Source: Sphingobacterium allocomposti
Lineage (GTDB): Bacteria; Bacteroidota; Bacteroidia; Sphingobacteriales; Sphingobacteriaceae
Assembly: GCF_008124885.1 (NCBI RefSeq)
Contig: NZ_VNHX01000002.1
Coordinates: 62,001-126,000 of the forward strand
Reading direction: 5' to 3'
Length of the DNA: 64,000 nucleotides
Shown here: positions 4,010 through 56,416 of the stretch, in pieces
How positions within the stretch are numbered: the stretch's first letter is position 1
Layout: each line of letters starts with the position of its first letter
Notes under the pieces: model-generated
What the model was told of the DNA's origin: nothing
What the model saw: only the letters and a program-made list of their open reading frames with translations
Database searches by the model: none
Made by a program: the position numbers and the translations under genes

Positions 4010-4459
4010 TTATTTTTGTGCCTTCTGGCAATGGGCGCATAGGCCAACAGCGTTAAGTGCGATGGCATGCAGTGTAAAATCAGGCGGTAGCCCGATCTTT
4101 GGCAAACTCACCTCATCGAGGCAATAGACGCTATTGCATACCGAGCAGATAAAATGTACGTGTTGATCGTGGTGATGATTTTCCGTACAGTCTGCCGTAC
4201 AGATGGCATAGGTCGCCGTCCCATGCAAGTCGAAGATTTTGTGCACTATTCCCTTTTCCTCGAAACTCGAAAGTATCCTGTATAAAGTCACCCTGTCAAT
4301 ATCCTTTCCGACAATTTTCTCTAAATCCGGTTGGGATATGGCTGCATCTTTTTGCGTTATCTCTGTTAAAACACGCAGTCTGTGCGGCGTGACTTTTAGT
4401 CCGTTCTCCCGAAGTAGCTTACCGAAATCTCGGCTTTTCTGTAAAGTTTCGCTTACCAT
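4010..4459 (-). CDS. Fur-family metal-dependent transcriptional regulator
   Basis: This 149-residue protein has the two Fur domains: an N-terminal winged helix (about 10-85, with TPHRLRVL and VTLYRILSSFEEKG) and a C-terminal dimerisation/metal domain. Metal-site candidates are the His cluster HHHDQHVHF at 95-103 and two CxxC pairs, CSVC at 105-108 and CAHC at 141-144, which form the structural zinc site. Whether it senses Fe (Fur), Zn (Zur) or peroxide (PerR) cannot be told from the sequence; the short form with a shifted His cluster is Zur-like. Monocistronic, with a terminator just downstream. A Fur-box-like palindrome occurs at 5580-5592 and the haem locus lies further along, but a link is only inference. 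Confidence 0.88.
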   Translation of the reverse strand: MVSETLQKSRDFGKLLRENGLKVTPHRLRVLTEITQKDAAISQPDLEKIVGKDIDRVTLYRILSSFEEKGIVHKIFDLHGTATYAICTADCTENHHHDQHVHFICSVCNSVYCLDEVSLPKIGLPPDFTLHAIALNAVGLCAHCQKAQK

Positions 4460-42512: not shown

Positions 42513-42555
42513 GATAAAGCGTCCCTGCACTTCTGCGGGGGCGCTTTATCTTTTT
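42513..42555 (+). terminator. Intrinsic terminator of hsp20
   Basis: GATAAAGCGTCCC (42513-42525) pairs with GGGGCGCTTTATC (42538-42550), one G-T wobble, followed by TTTTT. The T-run touches the stop of the convergent haem-oxygenase gene at 42554. Confidence 0.9.
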
Positions 42556-43123
42556 ATTGACCGGTTATTGCGGCCTGGGCAAATACATCACCAAACTTAG
42601 CAAATGTCTCGTTGGCTACCTCGGCAGCACGGGAATGGGTTGCCGGATCTTCACCGTACCTGTTCAGCACGTCCGTGAAGACAGTCCACATTTTCCCGGT
42701 TTCTTCCCCGTAGCCGGAAAAAAAAGAGGTGCCCGCACTGATGCCGTATTTGTTAAGCATCTGCACAATGTAAGGACCGCCCATAATAGAGCCTTCCAGG
42801 ACATATAGGGCGCTTAACGCTTCTAAGATGTTGTTTACAGCCGGTACGGCCGGTTCTGGCAGATCCTCCACCTGTCCGCCAAGCTCCTCGATGTCCGTTT
42901 TAATATACGATGAATTGCGACGGTTGGCGTAATCGGGCAGTACATCCGCACTAATATAAGGAGCGACGTTTCTTTCTACCGCGCGGAAATAAGCGTAAAA
43001 GTTTTTTAATACAGCGGCGTAGTCTGCATTTGAGCGGATCGACTTTAATTGCCGCACGACCACACCTTCTAAGGTTTGGTGTGCCTCTTTTGTGTTTTCT
43101 TTAATATATTGACTTAACATCAT
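42554..43123 (-). CDS. Biliverdin-producing haem oxygenase
   Basis: This 189-residue protein belongs to the haem oxygenase/BphO group: TKEAHQTLEG supplies the proximal haem-ligand His (residue 15) and ALYVLEGSIMGGPYI is the distal helix with its GxxxG flexibility. It opens haem to biliverdin, Fe2+ and CO in the cytosol. Starting MMLSQ, so either of two Met may serve. Together with HmuTUV and the HmuY/receptor system it supports iron scavenging from haem. A near-match -7 (minus AATCTTTG, 43158-43165) lies 35 bp upstream; a terminator at 43323-43359 separates it from the peroxidase, so it is likely a separate unit. Confidence 0.88.
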   Translation of the reverse strand: MMLSQYIKENTKEAHQTLEGVVVRQLKSIRSNADYAAVLKNFYAYFRAVERNVAPYISADVLPDYANRRNSSYIKTDIEELGGQVEDLPEPAVPAVNNILEALSALYVLEGSIMGGPYIVQMLNKYGISAGTSFFSGYGEETGKMWTVFTDVLNRYGEDPATHSRAAEVANETFAKFGDVFAQAAITGQ

Positions 43124-43322
43124 GTGTGTTCTATTTTATTTTTAAAACGGTTATTTACAAAGATTCTTATTTATCACGGAATTTGTATGCTGCGTTTCGC
43201 TCTTTCGTATATGAAAAACGATATTTTTTCATTGTCCCACGGCGCATAATTTGAAATCGCCGAACTGGATCTTATATTTGCCGTACTGATTTATTATATA
43301 GACGTCTCGGCACGACTATTCA

Positions 43323-47205: not shown

Positions 47206-47985
47206 TTACTGTGTCACTTCAAACTTGGTGCTTCCTTTTTTAGCCAGCACATAATCGAAAGAGAAGTAAGGTTTCTCGTCGTTCCGCTTCCACGTATCGC
47301 GCTCCAGTTTATTTTTATAAAGGCTACGCATCCGTACTTTGGCATAGTTGCCGCGAGCGGTGCGGACAATCACTGTACGTGGGCTAACGGTTTTCTTTTC
47401 GCCGTTGGGCAGCGTGATGTCGAGCGGTTCGTCAAGTGCGTAGGCAATATGCGCGTTGTCATATGCGCCGTCGCGTACCCGCGTGCCGCCAAAATCGTAC
47501 AGATACCAGCCTATGGCATCAGACATATCGCCGTTGATATCAGGGCCAACGACATTACGCTGGATCTTGAACTCCGCGTCCGCGGGGATATCCACCACCT
47601 CATCAAAACTTTTTTCGACGATCATAATACCGCCTACGCCAGGGCCATTCAGTCCATAATTGGGAGAAACCCCGGTGCCGTTTCCATTGTTCCCGGCGAG
47701 GTAGGATCGGTATATACCAGCGAAGGACAGATCCCAGCGGTTGGTTCTGCGGTGAGAAACATCGGCAGGCTTATTTTCTTCCATACTATAATAAATTGGA
47801 TCCTGATCGCTGTCAGGCGCGCTTCCGACTGGCAGATCCTCGCCGAAGTTGCGGACTTCAATCAAGCGGTTAAACATAGTTTCGGGGATAGCTGGTTCTG
47901 GCTCCGGTGCAGGATCACTTTTGCTACATCTGCCGAAGACTACGACAAAGAGCAAGGATAAAGCAATCATCAATAGTTTTTTCAT
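47206..47985 (-). CDS. hmuY: HmuY-family haem-binding lipoprotein 3
   Basis: This 259-residue protein, from ATG 47985, has a lipobox-like signal (VVVFGRC) and the HmuY pattern: RTNRWDLSFAGIYRSYL, then GWYLYDFG with IAYALDEPLDITLPNGE and finally GNYAKVRMRSLYKNK and PYFSFDYV. HmuY proteins capture haem, from haemoproteins or solution, and deliver it to the TonB receptor. The residue before IAYAL is His, in the place of haem-ligand candidates of relatives. It has its own promoter (TAACTTTG, minus, 48028-48035) and the shared 32-bp motif upstream, so it starts a second unit. Confidence 0.85.
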   Translation of the reverse strand: MKKLLMIALSLLFVVVFGRCSKSDPAPEPEPAIPETMFNRLIEVRNFGEDLPVGSAPDSDQDPIYYSMEENKPADVSHRRTNRWDLSFAGIYRSYLAGNNGNGTGVSPNYGLNGPGVGGIMIVEKSFDEVVDIPADAEFKIQRNVVGPDINGDMSDAIGWYLYDFGGTRVRDGAYDNAHIAYALDEPLDITLPNGEKKTVSPRTVIVRTARGNYAKVRMRSLYKNKLERDTWKRNDEKPYFSFDYVLAKKGSTKFEVTQ

Positions 47986-48027
47986 TTTCAATATGATTAC
48001 GGTGTTGTTATTTAAATTGATTCTAAA

Positions 48028-48035
48028 CAAAGTTA
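48028..48035 (-). promoter_or_regulatory. -7 element upstream of the third hmuY
   Basis: CAAAGTTA reads TAACTTTG on the minus strand, an exact TAnnTTTG match, 42 bp upstream of the ATG at 47985. No TTTG -33 is present at 19-21 bp; instead a 32-bp motif begins 23 bp further upstream, as expected for an activator-dependent promoter. Confidence 0.6.
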
Positions 48036-48058
48036 AGATGGGAGTCTATTAAGTCGTG

Positions 48059-48090
48059 TATGCAAAACGGTAAATCATGTCTGCAAAGTG
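48059..48090 (-). promoter_or_regulatory. Shared 32-bp haem-locus motif, copy 1
   Basis: TATGCAAAACGGTAAATCAT plus the following TGTCTGCAAAGTG agrees at 26 of 32 positions with 52194-52225, upstream of the TonB receptor. In both, a CAAA (minus TTTG) lies exactly 31 bp away from the first base of the motif. The size, position and two A-rich half-sites would fit an AraC-type activator site. The similarity is seen; the regulator is inferred. Confidence 0.6.
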
Positions 48091-48150
48091 TTTTTTATCT
48101 ATACTTATTCTAAAGTCTAGCGGGTATACAGGATTTTCCTTGCTCTAACT

Positions 48151-48834
48151 CTATTTAAATCCCTGATAATCAACAGAGTAGTATACATAGTTATCGGAAG
48201 CAGATTCTTTATTAGGTGTCTCATTCGAATAGATGCTATTGATACGGAATTTAAATAGCAGTGCACCGTCCTTGGAGACGATAAGGGTGCGGTTAGCTAT
48301 AGGCAAGATATGGTGTACGGACATGTCGTAATTAGACCATCCAATGGTTCCCTCTGGTGAAAATGGGGTTACTATTCCTACTTTGTTATCGGGGGCCGCT
48401 GTAAAGTTATCAGCTGCAGTAACAGATTCGAAGGCTTTATCGATGTACGAAAGGGTGTATCCCCTGCTGGTATTGGAAACAACGTCCATATTGCGCTGCG
48501 TGGCGTTAAGCGTTAACATCGCATCTTCTGCCGACACCCCATCATTCTCTTTGAAATTAAAATAAAACTGCGGAGCTACGTTTTCAGTTACCGCCCCATC
48601 TTCGCCAATGATAAATTGCCTGAAATTACGGAGGGAGTATACCGCTCCATGTCGGGATATTGTTCCTTCGGTGTTTATGCTGACGGAGACGTCAGCGAGT
48701 TTTTTTGTTTCGCCGTCTTTAACCATCACGCGCGCTTGATATTCCTGGTCTACCGGCGCCTCGTCCTTGTCGCAGGAAGTAAATCCAACAATTAGTGTGT
48801 ATGCCAGTGCGGCAATTTTAAATAGCTTGTTCAT
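48151..48834 (-). CDS. HmuY-family haem-binding lipoprotein 2 (divergent)
   Basis: This 227-residue protein, from ATG 48834, has a lipobox (VGFTSC). The middle is divergent, but the C-terminus VHHILPIANRTLIVSKDGALLFKFRINSIYSN, then YVYYSVDYQ, aligns with the HmuY proteins on either side (HI-x-x-L-P-x-R, then GxxxK-x-R-x-x-S-Y-x-N). The two His before ILP are haem-ligand candidates. It lies 29 bp after HmuY 1, with the same direction. Probably a HmuY-family member with altered pocket. The gap of 120 bp to the next gene holds the second promoter. Confidence 0.65.
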   Translation of the reverse strand: MNKLFKIAALAYTLIVGFTSCDKDEAPVDQEYQARVMVKDGETKKLADVSVSINTEGTISRHGAVYSLRNFRQFIIGEDGAVTENVAPQFYFNFKENDGVSAEDAMLTLNATQRNMDVVSNTSRGYTLSYIDKAFESVTAADNFTAAPDNKVGIVTPFSPEGTIGWSNYDMSVHHILPIANRTLIVSKDGALLFKFRINSIYSNETPNKESASDNYVYYSVDYQGFK

Positions 48835-48863
48835 GTGAATTTTGAAAATTAAAGGTGTTGACA

Positions 48864-49598
48864 TTATTGTGTTTTCAGATTTTTACTACCGTCCGGCTGC
48901 ACATAGTAGCGGAAGGTGAAGTAAGGTGCTGGCCAGTTCATATTGGTAACGGCTTCGGGATTGCCTTTATAAGCGTTGATGAGTTGCAGCTTGGCGTATT
49001 TACCATCCGGTAGGCGTATGGCGTAAGTGCGGTTGGGTAATGCCTGCATAATATGGGTTTGCAGGCTGTAGCGGAACCAGCCGGACGAGCTTTCGGTACC
49101 AGCCCATCCGATTTTGTTTACATCACTGCCATCAAAATCTGCATCCGACGGCGCCTGTGCCACAGTTTCATAAGCCTGACGAAGGAGAACGACGGCCGTG
49201 TTTTCTGCTTCCCCCCCATAGCCGGGGTTAAATTCGTGAAATGCGTTGTTTACAAAAATCTCCGAATTGTAGGGGCCGGTGAAGGCTAAATCCCAATCCT
49301 TGGTTTTGAGCCATTGCGCTGAATCGGTGGCGTTCCTGATCCATATCTGCCGTTGATCCCTGAACCGGAAAAGAAAAATGTGAAAATTTCGTCTTTCTTT
49401 TCCGTCAATGCCGTCGCCCATGGATGCTTCCGTGTCGCCCGCCAGATCATAGATAACGCTACTCTTGCCGTCTTCATACAGGGGTTGGGCATTTTCTTCT
49501 TTCCCACAGGAAGCCAGCACCAACACCAGTCCGGGAATTATTTTGCCTAGCAAAATAAAGCTCCGGCATTCATTGATGATTATTTTTAATGTATTCAT
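48864..49598 (-). CDS. hmuY: HmuY-family haem-binding lipoprotein 1
   Basis: This 244-residue protein has an N-terminal hydrophobic stretch with lipobox LASC and the HmuY pattern TKDWDLAFTGPYNSEIFV, GWFRYSLQTHIMQALPNRTYAIRL, GKYAKLQLINAYKG and PYFTFRYYV. The His and Met in THIMQ correspond to known HmuY-family haem ligands (His or Met pairs). It is the first gene after the TonB receptor, 162 bp away. Two further HmuY paralogues follow, so three different haem-capture proteins are encoded in a row. Confidence 0.88.
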   Translation of the reverse strand: MNTLKIIINECRSFILLGKIIPGLVLVLASCGKEENAQPLYEDGKSSVIYDLAGDTEASMGDGIDGKERRNFHIFLFRFRDQRQIWIRNATDSAQWLKTKDWDLAFTGPYNSEIFVNNAFHEFNPGYGGEAENTAVVLLRQAYETVAQAPSDADFDGSDVNKIGWAGTESSSGWFRYSLQTHIMQALPNRTYAIRLPDGKYAKLQLINAYKGNPEAVTNMNWPAPYFTFRYYVQPDGSKNLKTQ

Positions 49599-49760
49599 AT
49601 CTATATTGTTATTCGTGTGTGTTTATCTTTAGCGACATTCATAAATGGGCCACATTTTTTTGCCTGCTAAGCCAGGTTATCGTGGATGGGGCGCGAGCCG
49701 GATTTTCATTCCCGTTTATGGACTTTGCCTATTTTTCGCTGCTTCAAATGAGCTATCTTC

Positions 49761-52127
49761 CTAGTCCTTCATCCACCGATAGCTTAACCCTCCAAGGATG
49801 ACCCTTCCTGGCTGTCCGAGCATATACCGGTGGGTGAAATCCAATAGGTTATCTGCGATCAGCCGCAGGGATATTTTTTTGTTCAATAAAGCCTTTTCCA
49901 GCGTAACATTGATCAGGGTATGGTAGGGGACAAACCTGTCGCCGTCATCGATAAATTGGTTGCCATTGGTTTCCTGGAAAGGGTATTTCCCACGGATGTT
50001 CGCGCGGACGTTGATGCTCGTTTGCCAAGGCCGGTATTCATACATCAATTTCAGATTCGCCATATGGCGAGATCGATCTTCGATGCCCCAATAGTCGGAC
50101 GGCCTGCTCTGCCGGTATTCCCCGGTACCGGCGTTGTTGTATTGGTTGTAAGGATAATTGCCCGCCCGGATGCTATCTAGGACTCCCAGATCTTTGGCAA
50201 TGAGGTACTGATAGCCTGCCGACAATTGCAGGTCGCGCGTAGCCTGATAGCTGAAAGAAATCTCTATACCTTTGTTAACTGCTTTCGGCAGATTTCGGTA
50301 GGTATATATCTGCGAAATACGCGTTCCCGTTGCGATGTTGACGGAGTTGATCTGGTTGTTGATACGGTGATAGAATACTGAAGCTTCTGCCTGAATTTTC
50401 GGTATAGGGTTCCAGATCAGCCCGATATGGTTTGACCAGCTTTTCTCGGCTAAAAGGTTGCCGGCCAGCTGGTTTAACATATAACTGTTCTTATAACTGA
50501 GTTCTCCAGCGGCCTCCAGACCATTGACGACTTCTTCAAGACGGTCGTTGCCAACAACAAGATAGTTTGCAGAAGGATTGAAGAACACCTGATAACGCAT
50601 CTTATAGTCGGGAGCTTTAAATCCGGCGCCTGTCCCGGCTTTTAACAATAGTTTTTCGTTGAGGTGATATTGCAGTCCGAGGCTGGGGCTCACCCGTCCG
50701 GGATATACATTTGTCAGATCGTAGCGTAATCCAAGGGTGGCCAAGATGCGGTCCTTAGGACGCCACTCGGTCTGTATATAGGCAAACGCTGTTTGTAGGG
50801 AGCGTTTATCGTCGAGGTTCTGGTTGTCCATCAGCTCCATGCTGCCGCCCAAACCGCCAGTAAGTTTCAGGTTGCTGAGTGGGTTGTATGCAAATTGCTG
50901 CTCGATACGGTGGTCGTATTGGCCAAAAGCCTCCTCACCTGCTAATACTCCCTGATTAAACCATTGTGCCTGTAGCTCGGTATGAAAACGCGTGAGGTAG
51001 TAACGTGTCATACTGCGCAGTCCACTGGCAAAGCTGCGATCATAACTAACACCCATGTTGATGTCCTGATCTTTCTGCCCGTCTTCCAGTGTAAGATCGT
51101 TCGACCAGGCATTGTACATTTTGGAATTTCTTGCAGCGTAACGCGCCGTGAGACCTATTGTACCATCCTTGCTTGTACGGTAGCGGAGGCGTCCTTGAAA
51201 ACTGTAGTTTTCATAAGGAGGAAATGTGGTACTCCCCGTCATGAGATACCCCTTGTCTGTATTGAACCCGTCGGTACGGTAGTAATTGCCCGATACCACC
51301 ACCGATCCACGTTGGTTTGCAAATGCTGTTTCGCCTTCCAGCGTAGCATCTACGGTATTCAGTGTTCCGTATAGCAGGGACGCTTGCGCCTGTGGGGTTA
51401 TAGCACCGTGACGCGTCACGATATTGATGGCTCCGCCTAATGCATCGCTGCCGTAAAGACAAGATGAAGCGCCTTTAATAATTTCGATGCGCTCGATGTT
51501 GGTAACGGAAATCCGCGAGAGGTCGAAGTTGCCATTATTGCGGCCCAGCATCGGCTGCCCGTCGATGAGCACCATAATATAGTTGCTGCTGAAGCCCTGT
51601 ATCTGTACGCCGACCGCCCGTGACCCTCCAGCGATATCGTTGACGACTGCCACACCGGTCTGCTCCTTCATTACCTCATCAAGCCGACGACTTCCCATCA
51701 GCTCGATCTCGCGGCGGGTGATGATCTTCACCGGCATAGCGGCCTGCTCCACCTGAACAAGATTGTCGACGGCCGTTACTTTGCCCTGCACTTCCACCTG
51801 TTCTATCGCATGACCTGTGGCTTCCAACCGGATAGAGAGGACTGTATCGATGCGAGGCACGACTGCCTCCAGATGTTTGGTGGTATATCCCATATGGCGG
51901 ATCTCCAATTGATAGACTCCTTCGTAAAGTCCGCTGAATTCGAAATAACCATACTGATCCGTTTTATAAACCTTGTTGTCTGGTTTTAGTATAACGGTGG
52001 CATGGACGATAGGAAGCTCCATCGCATCACGGACATGGCCTCTTAATTCATGCTCCTGCGCGTTGGTAAAAAATGTAATACAGTTGATGAAAATGACTAA
52101 CAATATAGTTTTTTGCCGATAATACAC
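49761..52127 (-). CDS. hmuR: TonB-dependent haem receptor (HmuR type)
   Basis: This 788-residue protein has a signal peptide (ending TNAQ), a carboxypeptidase-regulatory-like domain (about 25-100), a plug domain (about 120-240, with GFSSNYIMVLIDGQPML and CLYGSDALGGAINIVT) and a 22-strand barrel. At about 500 it has FKAPDYKMRYQVFFNPSANYLVVGN, at the position of the FRAP/NPDL region of haem receptors. The C-terminus (GGLSYRWMKD) lacks a terminal Phe but is common in Bacteroidota. It takes haem from HmuY and moves it to the periplasm. Divergent from hmuT. Confidence 0.88.
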   Translation of the reverse strand: MYYRQKTILLVIFINCITFFTNAQEHELRGHVRDAMELPIVHATVILKPDNKVYKTDQYGYFEFSGLYEGVYQLEIRHMGYTTKHLEAVVPRIDTVLSIRLEATGHAIEQVEVQGKVTAVDNLVQVEQAAMPVKIITRREIELMGSRRLDEVMKEQTGVAVVNDIAGGSRAVGVQIQGFSSNYIMVLIDGQPMLGRNNGNFDLSRISVTNIERIEIIKGASSCLYGSDALGGAINIVTRHGAITPQAQASLLYGTLNTVDATLEGETAFANQRGSVVVSGNYYRTDGFNTDKGYLMTGSTTFPPYENYSFQGRLRYRTSKDGTIGLTARYAARNSKMYNAWSNDLTLEDGQKDQDINMGVSYDRSFASGLRSMTRYYLTRFHTELQAQWFNQGVLAGEEAFGQYDHRIEQQFAYNPLSNLKLTGGLGGSMELMDNQNLDDKRSLQTAFAYIQTEWRPKDRILATLGLRYDLTNVYPGRVSPSLGLQYHLNEKLLLKAGTGAGFKAPDYKMRYQVFFNPSANYLVVGNDRLEEVVNGLEAAGELSYKNSYMLNQLAGNLLAEKSWSNHIGLIWNPIPKIQAEASVFYHRINNQINSVNIATGTRISQIYTYRNLPKAVNKGIEISFSYQATRDLQLSAGYQYLIAKDLGVLDSIRAGNYPYNQYNNAGTGEYRQSRPSDYWGIEDRSRHMANLKLMYEYRPWQTSINVRANIRGKYPFQETNGNQFIDDGDRFVPYHTLINVTLEKALLNKKISLRLIADNLLDFTHRYMLGQPGRVILGGLSYRWMKD

Positions 52128-52193
52128 AACGCTGTTTATTTGTATTCGTTCTAAATAAGCTACAAATGACGGTAATCCTACTCACTTTTTTTC

Positions 52194-52225
52194 TATGAAA
52201 AATGGCAATTCATATCTGCAAATTG
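52194..52225 (-). promoter_or_regulatory. Shared 32-bp haem-locus motif, copy 2
   Basis: TATGAAAAATGGCAATTCAT plus ATCTGCAAATTG matches 48059-48090 at 26 of 32 positions. A CAAA (minus-strand TTTG core) at 52163-52166 lies at the same 31-bp offset as in the other copy. It is 66 bp upstream of the receptor ATG and also within the divergent region to hmuT. Confidence 0.6.
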
Positions 52226-52294: not shown

Positions 52295-52309
52295 TTGTCA
52301 ACATGACAA
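52295..52309. promoter_or_regulatory. TTGTCA-N3-TGACAA palindrome upstream of hmuT
   Basis: TTGTCA (52295-52300) and TGACAA (52304-52309) form a perfect 6-3-6 palindrome that overlaps a possible -33 TTTG (52294-52297) of a weak hmuT promoter with -7 TTAATTTG. It may be the site of a repressor or dimeric regulator. Confidence 0.4.
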
Positions 52310-52391
52310 GTGACGGCTTTAATTTGTATTTAGATTGATTATTGATTTGTTTTGTATGAGAATAGGACAGGTAAGAAATAGAAAATCGAGC

Positions 52392-53267
52392 ATGAAAAAC
52401 AGAAGAAATAAGTTTAGTGGATTAAAATGGGCGGTGGTGCTAGTCTTAGTTGGTGTACGCTGTAGCATGGCGCAGCAATTGCGTGTAGTAACCTTGAACA
52501 GCGCTATTACTGAGACGGTGTTCGCATTGGGAATGGGGGACAATATTGTCGCCACCGATGTAACCAGCATATCGCCGAAAGCGGCCGCAGATCTTCCACG
52601 TGTTAGCCGGAACCGCTCCATATCGGCTGAAGGAGTGATGGCTTTTCACCCGCACATTGTCTTAGCGCCTGAAAAAGACGTTCCCCCCGCTGTGGCGCAG
52701 CACCTGCGGCAATCCGGTATTCGGTTCATAGCAATCCGGCAGGAGTTTTCTGAAAAAGGAGCCTATCGGTTTATTCAGGAAGTAGCCAATGCGCTCGATA
52801 TACCGAAAAAGGGGAAAGAGGCCGTTCTTCGGACAAAGTTGGCCATGGACAGGGTAAGAGCGGTGGTCGAGGAACAAACAGCTGGTCGGACAAAACCGAA
52901 GGTACTTTTTATTTATGCCCGCGGTGCGGGGGCAATGAGTGTCGCCGGCAGAGGCAGCAGCCTTGATGCTTTGATTGAACTGTCGGGAGGGAGAAATGCC
53001 GTGCAGGAATTTTCGGATTTTAAACCTTATACGACGGAAGCACTGGTTAAGGCAGATCCTGATGTTATTCTGATGTTTGACTTTGGCGTCAGCAGCCTCG
53101 GAGGAAAGCGGTCTATTCTGAAGATGCCGGGAATGAATATGACGACCGCGGGACGACATGGGCGTATTCTTGCCCTGAATGCGTCGTTGCTGGTGAATTT
53201 CAGCACGCGCCTTCCCGAAGCCGTGGCATCCTTGCACCGGGAGCTGATGCAGTCTCCACAGGAGTAA
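52392..53267 (+). CDS. hmuT: Haem ABC transporter, periplasmic binding protein
   Basis: This 291-residue protein (from MKNRRNKF) has a signal peptide ending near SMAQ and the class III binding-protein fold: RVVTLNSAITETVFALGMGDNIVATDVTS, then YTTEALVKADPDVILMFDFG and a C-terminal FSTRLPEAVASL segment. Tyr in IRFIAIRQE... is not obviously a haem ligand, while VARYSRNRSIS-type loops resemble HmuT/PhuT. It carries haem to HmuU in the periplasm. Upstream Met at 52335 and 52356 are possible starts, but the signal peptide fits 52392. First gene of hmuTUV, divergent from the receptor. Confidence 0.85.
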   Translation: MKNRRNKFSGLKWAVVLVLVGVRCSMAQQLRVVTLNSAITETVFALGMGDNIVATDVTSISPKAAADLPRVSRNRSISAEGVMAFHPHIVLAPEKDVPPAVAQHLRQSGIRFIAIRQEFSEKGAYRFIQEVANALDIPKKGKEAVLRTKLAMDRVRAVVEEQTAGRTKPKVLFIYARGAGAMSVAGRGSSLDALIELSGGRNAVQEFSDFKPYTTEALVKADPDVILMFDFGVSSLGGKRSILKMPGMNMTTAGRHGRILALNASLLVNFSTRLPEAVASLHRELMQSPQE

Positions 53268-53350
53268 GGAAGAAAACACCGGAACCGTTTTACAGGGATT
53301 AAAAAAGTCGGTATATGGATTAGTCCGCTGGATTTGCCTTCGCAAAAAGA

Positions 53351-54430
53351 ATGTGCGGAAAGTGCATCGTCCTACTATCGTCTATCATATTTTGGAAGAA
53401 AGGAAACGTGTCAACAAAACAACGGATTATTATAATGGTACTGACTAGCACTTTGCTAGCCGTAGCGTTGCTGTCTTTAAGTCTAGGAGCTTATTACATA
53501 GCAATCGACGACGTCTGGCGCCTTATCCTGGAGAAAATTGGGATGGCGACCAGTGATTCGTTGGATGGTGATGTTCTTTTTGTAGTGCGGACGCCACGGG
53601 TTCTACTTGGACTCTTGGTTGGGGCCGCATTGGGTGGGGCGGGTGCCGCGGTTCAAGGTATCTTCAGAAATCCGCTGGCTGATCCAGGGTTGATCGGCAT
53701 TTCCGCTGGCGCATCGTTATTTGCTGTATTGGTAATAGCATTTGAAAGTATCCTGTTCGTCGGACTATCGCAACTGTTTGGACATTACCTGTTGATCTTG
53801 GGATCTTTTGTGGGAGCAGGACTAACGGCATTTATGGTATATCGTCTTTCCTTGAAGGAAGGACGTCCTCAGGTGACGACCATGTTACTGGCGGGAATCG
53901 CCATCAACGGACTGGCAGGAGCGCTTACAGGCCTGACGACCTATATGGCAACAGAGCAGCAGTTGCGTACTATTACGTTCTGGATGCTGGGAAGTTTGGG
54001 CGGAGCGACGTGGGAAAGTGTGGCCGCGGTCACGCCCTTTATCATACTACCGGTGTTCGGCATGCTGTTTTTCGGAAAGGCGCTGAACGCTTTTGCGCTT
54101 GGGGAAACACAGGCCGACCTCTTGGGTATGCGGACCGACAACGTCAAGCTTTGGGTCGTTACGTTGGGCACTCTTGCTGTGGGAGCCGCCGTTGCTGTGT
54201 CGGGTATCATCGGATTTGTTGGTCTGCTGGTGCCCCACACTGTCCGCCTGATGGGGGGGGCAGACAACCGGTATGTGCTGGTCGCATCAATCATTATGGG
54301 ATCGATGGTACTGACGCTGGCCGATGTGCTGTGTCGTACCTTGGCAGCGCCCATTGAGCTACCGATCGGTGTAATAACCGCGCTGCTGGGCACGCCGGTT
54401 TTTCTGTATATTTTAATAAAAGAAAGGTAG
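53351..54430 (+). CDS. hmuU: Haem ABC transporter permease (FecCD type)
   Basis: This 359-residue protein has about ten membrane segments and the FecCD motifs RTPRVLLGLLVGAALGGAGAAVQGIFRNPLADPGLIGISAGA and, at the end, GFVGLLVPHTVRL. It forms the channel of the haem importer as a homodimer. ATG 53351 starts the longest frame; a GTG at 53408 with AAGGA before it is a strong alternative, since residues 1-19 have no family counterpart. It follows hmuT by 83 bp and precedes hmuV by 148 bp. Confidence 0.87.
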   Translation: MCGKCIVLLSSIIFWKKGNVSTKQRIIIMVLTSTLLAVALLSLSLGAYYIAIDDVWRLILEKIGMATSDSLDGDVLFVVRTPRVLLGLLVGAALGGAGAAVQGIFRNPLADPGLIGISAGASLFAVLVIAFESILFVGLSQLFGHYLLILGSFVGAGLTAFMVYRLSLKEGRPQVTTMLLAGIAINGLAGALTGLTTYMATEQQLRTITFWMLGSLGGATWESVAAVTPFIILPVFGMLFFGKALNAFALGETQADLLGMRTDNVKLWVVTLGTLAVGAAVAVSGIIGFVGLLVPHTVRLMGGADNRYVLVASIIMGSMVLTLADVLCRTLAAPIELPIGVITALLGTPVFLYILIKER

Positions 54431-54578
54431 ACTATTTATGTTTGTGTGCTTTCAAGGTATTCATGTATTATGTGGTGCGTTTTGCTCTCCGCTGTTATTG
54501 AGGCCTATGTCAGAGAGGAAATGCGGAAGATAGCACTACCTCGGAGACTTATTTAGATGTTGCTTAACACGTTGTACT

Positions 54579-55388
54579 ATGTTACGGGTAGATAAATTAA
54601 ATTATGAAATCAAGGGTCGAACGCTGTTGAAGGACGTCTCGCTGCAGGTGCGGAAAGGAGAGATCGTAGTTTTATTGGGAGCTAATGGTGCCGGAAAGTC
54701 AACACTGATGCGCCTCCTGGCCGGCGATGTGGCGCCGTGCTCAGGAACGGTGAGACTATGTGGGCAGCCGCTGGAAAAATACAACATGCGCCGGCTGGCC
54801 AGGCAACGTGCAATGCTCATCCAACAACAGCAGGTGGCCCTGTCATTTACGGTTCGGGAAATCGTCCTGATGGGACGTTACCCACATTTCCGCTCGGCAC
54901 CACAAGCTGCCGATCTCGCTATCGTGGAAGAGGTGATGGCCTTGTGCGGTGTATCGGATTTCGGAGATCGGGTTTATATGAGTTTGTCAGGAGGGGAGCA
55001 GCAGCGGGTGCAGCTTGCCCGTGTACTCGCACAGATCTGGGACAATCCTGAGGGGCTGTTGTTGCTTGACGAACCTATCTCGGCGTTGGACATGTACTAT
55101 CAGCAAAAGGTGCTGGCTATTGCTAAGGCCCTTTCGCGCCGGGGCTATATGGTGGTATTGATTCTACATGACCTCAATTATGCCGCAAGCTATGCAGACC
55201 GGATCGTCATGCTAAAGCACGGACGTAAGTTGTTCGACGGCACTCCCATAGAGGTGCTGACCACTCCGAACATATATACCGTTTTTTCCGTGGAAGCCGA
55301 AGTCGACATTAGTCCGTATACCTTACGTCCCTATGTCAGATTCAAGGAGATGAAACTGGATGAACCAGTGATGAGGTGTGTTATTTAG
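54579..55388 (+). CDS. hmuV: Haem ABC transporter ATPase
   Basis: This 269-residue protein has Walker A GANGAGKST (34-42), the Q-loop (IQQQQVALSFTVRE), signature LSGGEQQRVQLARVL (136-150), Walker B LLLLDEP (160-166) and the H-loop HDLN (197-200). It powers haem import with HmuU. The C-terminal tail (YTLRPYVRFKEMK) is typical of HmuV. A TATGTTTG element at 54437-54444 could give an additional promoter, but the gene is probably cotranscribed with hmuU. The AraC gene follows after 65 bp. Confidence 0.9.
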   Translation: MLRVDKLNYEIKGRTLLKDVSLQVRKGEIVVLLGANGAGKSTLMRLLAGDVAPCSGTVRLCGQPLEKYNMRRLARQRAMLIQQQQVALSFTVREIVLMGRYPHFRSAPQAADLAIVEEVMALCGVSDFGDRVYMSLSGGEQQRVQLARVLAQIWDNPEGLLLLDEPISALDMYYQQKVLAIAKALSRRGYMVVLILHDLNYAASYADRIVMLKHGRKLFDGTPIEVLTTPNIYTVFSVEAEVDISPYTLRPYVRFKEMKLDEPVMRCVI

Positions 55389-55453
55389 AATTAATTTAAA
55401 TAATTGAAATAAGTTGTATATCTTTAAGGCATGAATTTGCAGGAACTTTCACT

Positions 55454-56416
55454 ATGCGTGTAAAAAGTAAAATAGTAGAGTTGAGCGAATGGCTTTTTAT
55501 CGAGGAAGTACCGGATAGCTATGACCCCAATAGACCGTTGGAAGAGCACCGCTCCGTCATCGACAATGAAGCGATGCATATGGAGATATTTCACCTATCT
55601 ACAAGCGGACTATTTATTTTGCATACAAAAATGTTGTTCGAGCAGGCCATGCACATCCATATCGACATCGAAGGCGAGGCTGTCACGAGCCAGTTTGTCT
55701 TTTTTAAATCGGCGGATAATAAACTCCCGTATGGTATGAGTCGCCACAATATCCGGTATATTCCTTCAGCGAAGACCGTACACGGGGTTAAGGAGAATAT
55801 CGAGTACAGCTATTTTATTGCAGTAATATCAAAGGAATATTATCTCAACCTGATAAAGCGGGACTCGCTGCTTCACGAACATTTTATGCAGGAAATAGAA
55901 AAGGGGCAATATGCCTCGTTTTCAGAAGAGGATCTGACGGCGACATATGAGATGCAGCATACCATTACCGAACTGGTTGAATCCAGAAAAACGGGGGAGA
56001 TCCGGCGCCTGCATACCGAGTCGCGTGTCGTCGAACTGCTCATGTATCAATTTGAACAGTATAATGAAAAGAACGGGAAGCATGCCCCTTTGTTCAATGA
56101 AGACGATATCGCCCGCCTTGAGCTTGCGCGGCAGATCCTTGAGCAGCGCCTGTCTAACCCGCCGACGCAGAAAGAGCTGGCTGCGGAAGTGCTGATGAGC
56201 GAAAGCAAGCTGCGGAAAGATTTTAAAGAATATTTCTCCGTGACCATACACGACTATCTAACACGGATTCGGATGGAGAAAGCCCGTAGCTATCTACTCG
56301 ATGATAAGATGTCGGTATATAAAGTAGCGTTGTTAACCGGTTTTGGTCATCAGAACAACTTCAGCAGTGCTTTTAAGAAATACTACGGTATATCCCCGGG
56401 AGAATTGAAGTTTTGA
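55454..56416 (+). CDS. AraC-family regulator of the haem locus (PchR-like)
   Basis: This 320-residue protein has an N-terminal sensing region (about 1-200, no known ligand motif) and a C-terminal AraC DNA-binding domain (about 215-320) with ARQILEQRLSNPPTQKELAAEVLMSESKLRKDFKEYF and YKVALLTGFGHQNNFSSAFKKYYGISPGELK, the double helix-turn-helix. PchR-type members sense ferric siderophores or haem and activate uptake genes. Its place after hmuV suggests control of this island, with the shared 32-bp motif as the candidate site. AATTTGCAG at 55434-55442 in its leader resembles part of the motif and might reflect autoregulation. Confidence 0.82.
   Translation: MRVKSKIVELSEWLFIEEVPDSYDPNRPLEEHRSVIDNEAMHMEIFHLSTSGLFILHTKMLFEQAMHIHIDIEGEAVTSQFVFFKSADNKLPYGMSRHNIRYIPSAKTVHGVKENIEYSYFIAVISKEYYLNLIKRDSLLHEHFMQEIEKGQYASFSEEDLTATYEMQHTITELVESRKTGEIRRLHTESRVVELLMYQFEQYNEKNGKHAPLFNEDDIARLELARQILEQRLSNPPTQKELAAEVLMSESKLRKDFKEYFSVTIHDYLTRIRMEKARSYLLDDKMSVYKVALLTGFGHQNNFSSAFKKYYGISPGELKF

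Follow-up and report, generated by a model that had tools for sequence, protein, structure and literature searches.

Little is understood of how HmuY-type haem systems are controlled in Bacteroidota. The hmu and hfp systems of Porphyromonas, Bacteroides and Flavobacterium psychrophilum combine an HmuY-family haemophore with a TonB receptor and are induced by iron lack (PMC10434189, PMC9331221). The regulators named there are CdhR and a Fur candidate, and how CdhR regulates hmuYR is described as still unclear (PMC10434189); in the available text AraC is a single table entry (BT1385) in PMC10434189 and is not mentioned in PMC9331221. Here we describe a haem locus of this type in a 64-kb stretch of Sphingobacterium allocomposti DNA (contig NZ_VNHX01000002.1, positions 62,001 to 126,000; hereafter the window), in which a 32-bp motif recurs upstream of a TonB receptor operon and of an hmuY operon. 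We consider it very probable that this motif is a tandem operator for the AraC-type protein encoded at 55454, which would act as a -35-adjacent activator of at least three transcription units, at two of them in a predicted AND arrangement with Fur, and the locus thus offers a concrete candidate regulator, its operator and three targets.

Several described regulators resemble parts of this arrangement. XylS acts at the Pm promoter of the Pseudomonas putida TOL plasmid through two direct repeats of 21-bp period, each repeat 15 bp long and 6 bp from the other (PMC5481539), and the title of a reference cited in that paper states that the XylS operator and polymerase sites overlap. The window shares with Pm the 21-bp direct repeats and a proximal repeat that coincides with or adjoins the -35/-33 position, and differs in half-site sequence, signal, pathway and promoter type, which here is of the -33/-7 kind; a Fur layer is not mentioned in the available text of PMC5481539. 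In its predicted logic, the locus resembles PchR and Fur in the pyochelin system of Pseudomonas aeruginosa, where an AraC-type regulator of an iron-source receptor operon is combined with Fur repression and both iron lack and ligand are needed (PMC8477383, whose reference list names a “PchR-box”). That system serves a siderophore, whereas the present one lies in a haem locus with -33/-7 promoters, and the likeness drawn here is one of logic. In cyanobacteria, genes for AraC-type regulators of the IutR/PchR type likewise stand beside those of TonB-dependent transporters, and the proteins are activators under iron lack (PMC11221513); three potential ChIP-seq motifs are given for them, and the term “direct repeat” is absent from the available text. 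We found no description of the present regulator in the literature searched, in which coverage of subscription journals was poor.

A probable tandem operator in place of the -33 element

Bacteroidota promoters carry TTTG at -33 and TAnnTTTG at -7. The two transcription units that bear the motif are laid out as follows.

52194-52225, minus strand: operator of the TonB receptor operon (distal half-site 52215-52225, CAATTTGCAGA; 10 bp; proximal half-site 52194-52204, CATTTTTCATA)
52163-52166, minus strand: TTTG core of the receptor promoter (TCATTTG), 27 bp past the proximal half-site, with no TAnn and no -33 TTTG
49761-52127, minus strand: TonB-dependent receptor, first gene of target unit 1
48059-48090, minus strand: operator of the hmuY_C operon (distal half-site 48080-48090, CACTTTGCAGA; 10 bp; proximal half-site 48059-48069, CGTTTTGCATA)
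48028-48031, minus strand: TTTG core of the hmuY_C promoter (TAACTTTG), an exact TAnnTTTG
47206-48030, minus strand: HmuY-family gene, here hmuY_C, first gene of target unit 2 (Pfam HmuY 28.5 bits, cut-off 27)

A preliminary description of this DNA had reported 26 identities in 32 positions between the two copies, which stand at a fixed offset from their promoter cores in leaders that otherwise differ, and each of these statements holds on re-examination. A direct recount gives 26/32, and the two copies are the sole direct 32-mer pair to reach that level in the window; from the final base of the core to the first base of the motif the distance is 31 bp in either copy, and outside motif and core the leaders have little in common. 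Dinucleotide shuffles of the whole window produced a direct pair of at least 26/32 in one case of 21, while in 3000 shuffles of the two leaders 26 was never reached (maximum 23); as evidence, the match is modest over the whole window and strong between the two leaders. We also scored the window with a matrix made from relatives, the window and its two closest loci being omitted, and obtained 33.5 and 30.1 for the two copies and 14.8 for the next-best place, with none of 200 column-permuted matrices reaching the top window score (best 27.2).

Beyond what the preliminary description had noted, the motif is itself a tandem repeat of period 21. On the minus strand two 11-bp half-sites, CRnTTTnCAKA and then CRnTTTnCATA, follow one another as a direct repeat, and in both window operators the proximal half-site is followed by 27 bp and then TTTG. 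A single 32-bp block (the length, too, of the PchR-box) is rejected, since the halves repeat at 21 bp and vary together across clades.

The preliminary description had suggested looking for the motif at related haem loci, and it is indeed there. A query with the AraC protein returned 38 named loci, 35 titled Sphingobacterium and the remaining three coming from Parapedobacter, a Sphingobacteriaceae record and a Chitinophagaceae record, and the receptor-hmuT intergenic region was readable in 36 of these and in the window (L048 is incomplete and L068 differently arranged). All 37 of these syntenic receptor leaders contain a 21-bp-spaced pair scoring at least 14/18; the mean pair score has a unique peak at period 21 (15.9/18, against 11.7-14.2 at other spacings), and the other strand of the same leaders has no such peak. 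The site is present in the hmuY_C leader at 25 of 35 loci, and at five of the ten loci that have none (L060, L061, L062, L064 and L065) hmuY_C begins no more than about 60 bp after the preceding gene and may do without a promoter of its own.

A TTTG or TTTA core lies at +27 in 33 of the 37 receptor sites and in all 25 hmuY_C sites. The preliminary description had noted that the first copy has an exact TAnnTTTG and no -33 TTTG, which is correct, and the second copy proves to be without a -33 TTTG as well; among the 58 operator-bearing promoters with a TTT core at +27 the element occurs in none. Its expected position is immediately after the proximal half-site. The -7 element is not the same in the two promoter types: TAnn precedes the core in 25/25 hmuY_C sites and in 0/33 receptor sites.

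The same layout extends to diverged homologues that had no part in building the motif. At 24 loci whose AraC homologues are 36-52% identical, 41 upstream regions were scored by self-similarity and a TTTG term, with no half-site consensus, and period 21 was the sole peak (10.8-11.5, against at most 9.9 for other periods from 14 to 32). Generic half-site anchors were passed by 30 of 88 gene leaders at these paralogue loci, many of the 88 being operon-internal. In six other genera of the family, 25 regions scored by self-similarity alone reached 8.92 at period 21, the 28 other periods giving 6.92-7.72. Read by eye, with three repeats allowed for, the complete layout is found at 12 of 19 loci in these genera (L176-L194; L195, with an AraC homologue of 32%, was excluded) and was not seen by eye in L179, L183 or L190-L194. 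Three tandem half-sites occur at several loci, for instance L140, L148, L176, L182, L187 and L189.

Half-sites spaced every 21 bp, or two helical turns, would place two monomers on one face of the DNA. Since the proximal half-site ends where the -33 TTTG would be, the geometry suggests a class II-like, -35-adjacent activator that contacts the polymerase and supplies the missing -33 contact, and such an arrangement suggests how -33-less promoters could fire.

The AraC-type protein and a predicted third target

The predicted binder is encoded as follows.

55454-56416, plus strand: AraC/XylS-family regulator, predicted operator binder, with a beta-rich N-terminal domain and a C-terminal double helix-turn-helix (HTH)

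Judged by its DNA-binding domain, the protein is a member of the AraC/XylS family (Pfam PF12833, 76.9 bits, cut-off 33.6; PF00165, 50.6 bits, cut-off 26.6; structural matches to AraC-type DNA-binding domains in the PDB). An AlphaFold2 model is AraC-like, with beta-rich residues 2-126 followed by helices and the HTH domain (predicted local distance difference test, pLDDT, 82.8), and its inter-domain placement is uncertain (predicted template modelling score, pTM, 0.60). Full-length Foldseek matches are Rns, CsvR and ToxT at E ~1e-7 to 1e-5, yet with low template modelling scores (0.27-0.30 by query). Among the NCBIfam matches listed (25 of 27), none is to a model named PchR.

Across genomes of the genus we compared the site, as found by a 75-position sequence model at E <= 1e-5, with the presence of an AraC orthologue (at least 55% identity). 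Strong matches occur in 49 of 53 genomes with an orthologue and in 1 of 40 without, a comparison to be read with two reservations that count against our interpretation, namely that it is partly circular, many genomes having supplied training sites, and that it is confounded by the linkage of AraC and receptor genes. The one genome without an orthologue that gives a strong match, G017, encodes an AraC protein of 36% identity about 0.2 kb from the site, and the DNA-binding domain of this protein is closely similar. Among the four genomes missed, G043 does have a site when scored by the matrix (29.5), and G028, G057 and G092 have sites (19.6, 16.7 and 14.5) before another HmuY-like/TonB operon adjoining the AraC gene; in G034 the strong match lies at a paralogue locus. 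The site also stands at four hmuY operons with no AraC gene within the 16 kb read (L123-L126): in G053 site and AraC gene are some 2 Mb apart on one contig, and in the other three cases they are on different contigs. G068 retains the receptor (59%) and has neither an AraC orthologue nor an operator before the receptor, a case weakened by its being a 90%-complete draft, so that the AraC gene might be absent from the assembly only.

The half-site changes with the AraC clade. CRnTTTnCATA goes with HQNNF and SESKLRKDF in the protein, CGGATTGCATA with HQNNF and NEFKLRRGF, and CGGATTGAACA with HQASF. A hand-made table of residues and half-sites (54/54 and 13/13) is not relied on here, because an automatic repeat with half-site positions 8 and 10 masked gave exceptions. 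In that repeat 63 of 81 loci passed the score, some picks looking wrong, and position 10 was other than C at 45 of 48 Asn302 loci and C at 12 of 15 Ser302 loci; the exceptions (3/48 and 3/15) tell against a strict rule, and the association follows clades, so its counts are non-independent. A mutual-information analysis of AraC residues against half-site position 10 makes no single residue stand out, because clade history dominates. These natural clades with different half-sites are ready material for a DNA-recognition code. We note a further case at L127:12438-13391, an AraC protein 36% identical overall whose DNA-binding domain is closely similar to that of the window and whose operator is of the same class; its sensor domain looks, from sequence, as if swapped or fast-diverged.

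A third, weaker operator lies in front of the haem oxygenase gene.

43189-43220, minus strand: third, weaker operator (distal half-site 43210-43220, CGTTTTTCATA; degenerate proximal half-site 43189-43199, CGAAACGCAGC)
43158-43161, minus strand: TTTG core of the haem oxygenase promoter, 27 bp past the proximal half-site
42554-43123, minus strand: haem oxygenase gene, target unit 3

Haem oxygenase promoters were outside the training of the model. We sampled 22 of the 53 AraC-bearing genomes, that of the window included, taking the best locus in each, and a distal half-site that is strong and a proximal one that is weak, with 21-bp period and 27 bp to TTTG, were present in all 22; four diverged haem oxygenase copies were set aside (L220, with a clade-B operator, and L221-L223, with no operator). 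A haem oxygenase is present in 25 of the 40 genomes without an AraC orthologue, a group in which some members have more distant AraC homologues; 30 of 32 matches were read, and once L249-L252, whose operator is of the type seen at a clade-B AraC locus, had been set aside, the operator was found in 1 of 26 promoters (L226). Restricting these genomes to haem oxygenases at least 60% identical leaves the operator in 1 of 12. The leader of L228 has the distal half-site only, and that of L224 has kept the core and a Fur-like box, with the operator not present. The cut-off, a core together with a matrix score of 10 or more, was set after the scores were seen; the gap is wide, at 10.4-21.5 with an AraC orthologue against -3.7 or lower without, L226 at 15.0 excepted.

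In this genome the co-regulated units would thus be at least three: the receptor operon, the hmuY_C operon and haem oxygenase. The preliminary description had proposed an activator of two units, possibly the AraC-type protein at 55454. The activator is supported by comparison, through the 21-bp half-sites, the 27-bp spacing, the missing -33 TTTG, the co-occurrence with AraC, the unlinked sites and the drift of the half-site with clade; the two units stand, while the regulon is larger, with haem oxygenase as its third member, and the Fur-type box described below had gone unnoticed. A large regulon in this genome is unsupported at the sensitivity reached: the 75-position model gave two matches at E < 0.5, and the 32-bp pattern two matches at 0 mismatches, none at 1, three at 2 and 44 at up to 3, the same number as its reversed control. 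The weak haem oxygenase site was missed by the model, so further weak targets may remain. Autoregulation of the AraC gene through its own operator is likewise unsupported, as there is no operator before 55454.

Fur-type boxes and competing explanations

A palindrome close to TTATTTAGAATnATTnnAAATAA lies at or just past the cores.

52136-52158, minus strand: Fur-box-like palindrome TTATTTAGAACGAATACAAATAA (pattern match), just past the receptor core
48008-48030, minus strand: Fur-box-like palindrome TTGTTTAGAATCAATTTAAATAA (pattern match), overlapping the end of the hmuY_C core
55381-55403, plus strand: Fur-box-like palindrome TTATTTAGAATTAATTTAAATAA before the AraC gene, the best match of the pattern in the genome, with 1 mismatch

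In Riemerella a Fur box, ATTTAGAATTATTCTAAAT, has been described together with a gel shift (PMC5609570), and a palindrome like that of Bacteroidota Fur-box promoters is found at these three window sites. Against the pattern TTATTTAGAATNATTNNAAATAA, 55381-55403 has 1 mismatch, and 48008-48030, 52136-52158 and two other places have 2; at up to 3 mismatches the genome holds 20 matches at 13 places when both strands are counted, the reversed control yielding 4, and the haem oxygenase leader is not among the matches.

At the receptor and hmuY_C promoters, iron-loaded Fur would block the start region. With a Fur-like box at the starts and an AraC operator upstream, these two units would therefore need both iron limitation and the AraC-activating signal, whereas the AraC and hmuT leaders carry a Fur-type element only, so the regulator and the inner-membrane transporter would respond to iron alone; haem oxygenase, whose Fur-like element is weaker, would respond to the AraC signal. 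We can only guess at that signal, which is most likely haem or a haem product. The prediction is a two-key logic of iron lack and haem signal, by which the genes of haem uptake and breakdown would be switched on together, probably only under iron scarcity.

How far this can be generalised is less certain. We put forward, tentatively and with slightly less than even confidence, that haem-linked AraC activators in at least seven genera of one family form an AND gate with Fur on -33-less promoters, that their half-site letters are partly readable from the second HTH, Asn302 going with T and Ser302 with C at half-site position 10, and that haem or a breakdown product is the signal, with positive feedback between uptake and haem oxygenase.

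A number of observations weigh against the operator model, in addition to the reservations on co-occurrence, on G068 and on residue 302 given above. Three of the 37 receptor sites have TTGC at +27, the core lying one base nearer, and the L063 receptor site has no core at +27. When paralogue sites are anchored without reference to a core, +27 is the commonest offset and yet accounts for just 18 of 28 distinct sites, the runner-up having 6, and in the other genera a core at +27 is found in 4 of 10 sites passing the anchor score; these modest counts arise in part because the scan takes the upstream pair of three repeats. The operator was not found in L183 and L190-L194 (AraC 42-45% identical), nor before the L068 receptor (50%), nor, by automatic scoring, at the clade-D loci L145, L146, L151 and L152. 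The haem oxygenase operator of the window is weak (position weight matrix score 10.4). Finally, the L226 site belongs to a genome, G041, whose best AraC homologue is only 31% identical, which may reflect a recent loss of AraC or another binder.

That last case bears on the view that the operator is real and is bound by some other regulator, either a different paralogue of the AraC type or a two-component hybrid that carries an AraC-type HTH, the protein at 55454 being a neighbour with another role. Other candidates exist, as a search with the 55454 protein gives 20 or more matches at E <= 0.001 in the genome of the window, and G041 has a site without a close AraC orthologue; against this, the site tracks the 55454 orthologue across genomes, paralogue clades have their own version of the half-site nearby, and L127 combines a divergent N-terminal half and a closely similar DNA-binding domain with the same class of operator. 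We therefore regard a different binder as improbable. Far less credible still, to the point that we give it almost no weight, is the notion that the shared motif is the trace of a recent promoter duplication with no regulatory role: both copies do precede HmuY-system genes a few kilobases apart, but the leaders share little beyond motif and core, and the period stays at 21 across seven genera while the letters of the half-sites change.

The alternative that we take most seriously concerns the sign of regulation. The 55454 protein might be mainly a repressor, or dual in the manner of PchR, which represses without ligand and activates with it (PMC8477383), and there is also the example of IurV, an AraC-type protein of Vibrio cholerae described as repressing most iron uptake systems (PMC7600106). 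The position of the operator, upstream of the core and in place of the missing -33, suits activation, however, and the start region is already taken by the Fur-type box. We consider repression or dual action unlikely, though distinctly less so than a different binder, and retain activation by the AraC-type protein as the preferred reading.

Other features of the haem locus

The transporter genes between receptor and regulator, and their leader, are as follows.

52392-55388, plus strand: hmuT, hmuU and hmuV, ATP-binding cassette (ABC) transporter genes, divergent from the receptor (names inferred; hmuT start picked by eye)
52323-52356, plus strand: hmuT leader, with a TTTG core and a conserved Fur-like element TATTTAGATTGATTATTGATTTGTTTTGTA and no AraC operator

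The ATPase of hmuTUV scores above the NCBIfam haem ABC cut-off. In the hmuT leader an element of about 30 bp, TATTTAGAcTgATTATTGATTTGTTTTGTA, is strongly conserved in 21 aligned loci and is longer than a Fur box alone explains. A perfect inverted repeat, TTGTCA-ACA-TGACAA (TTGTCAACATGACAA), covers the hmuT -33 region at 52295-52309; neither this repeat nor the window's hmuT -33 TTTG pairing is present in the 36 relatives scanned.

Three genes had been called hmuY in the preliminary description. The third, 47206-48030, passes the Pfam HmuY cut-off, and its true start codon is probably inside this open reading frame (ORF); the other two do not, 48867-49598 scoring 25.5 bits, under the cut-off of 27, and 48154-48864 giving no Pfam match. 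The haem oxygenase operator stands behind a terminator-like hairpin that follows a peroxidase gene.

At L137, L138 and L139, AraC homologues (55-63%) adjoin a six-gene operon whose first gene has the same operator layout. This operon encodes a TonB receptor of some 1080 amino acids, a subtilase-family protein and proteins with a weak likeness to HmuY. Other places matching the Fur pattern lie, by ORF reading, near a ferritin-like gene and genes resembling TonB receptors. The genome has three Fur-family genes above the Pfam cut-off, and a Fur-family gene lies inside the window, at 4112-4408 on the minus strand (PF01475, 43.5 bits, above the cut-off).

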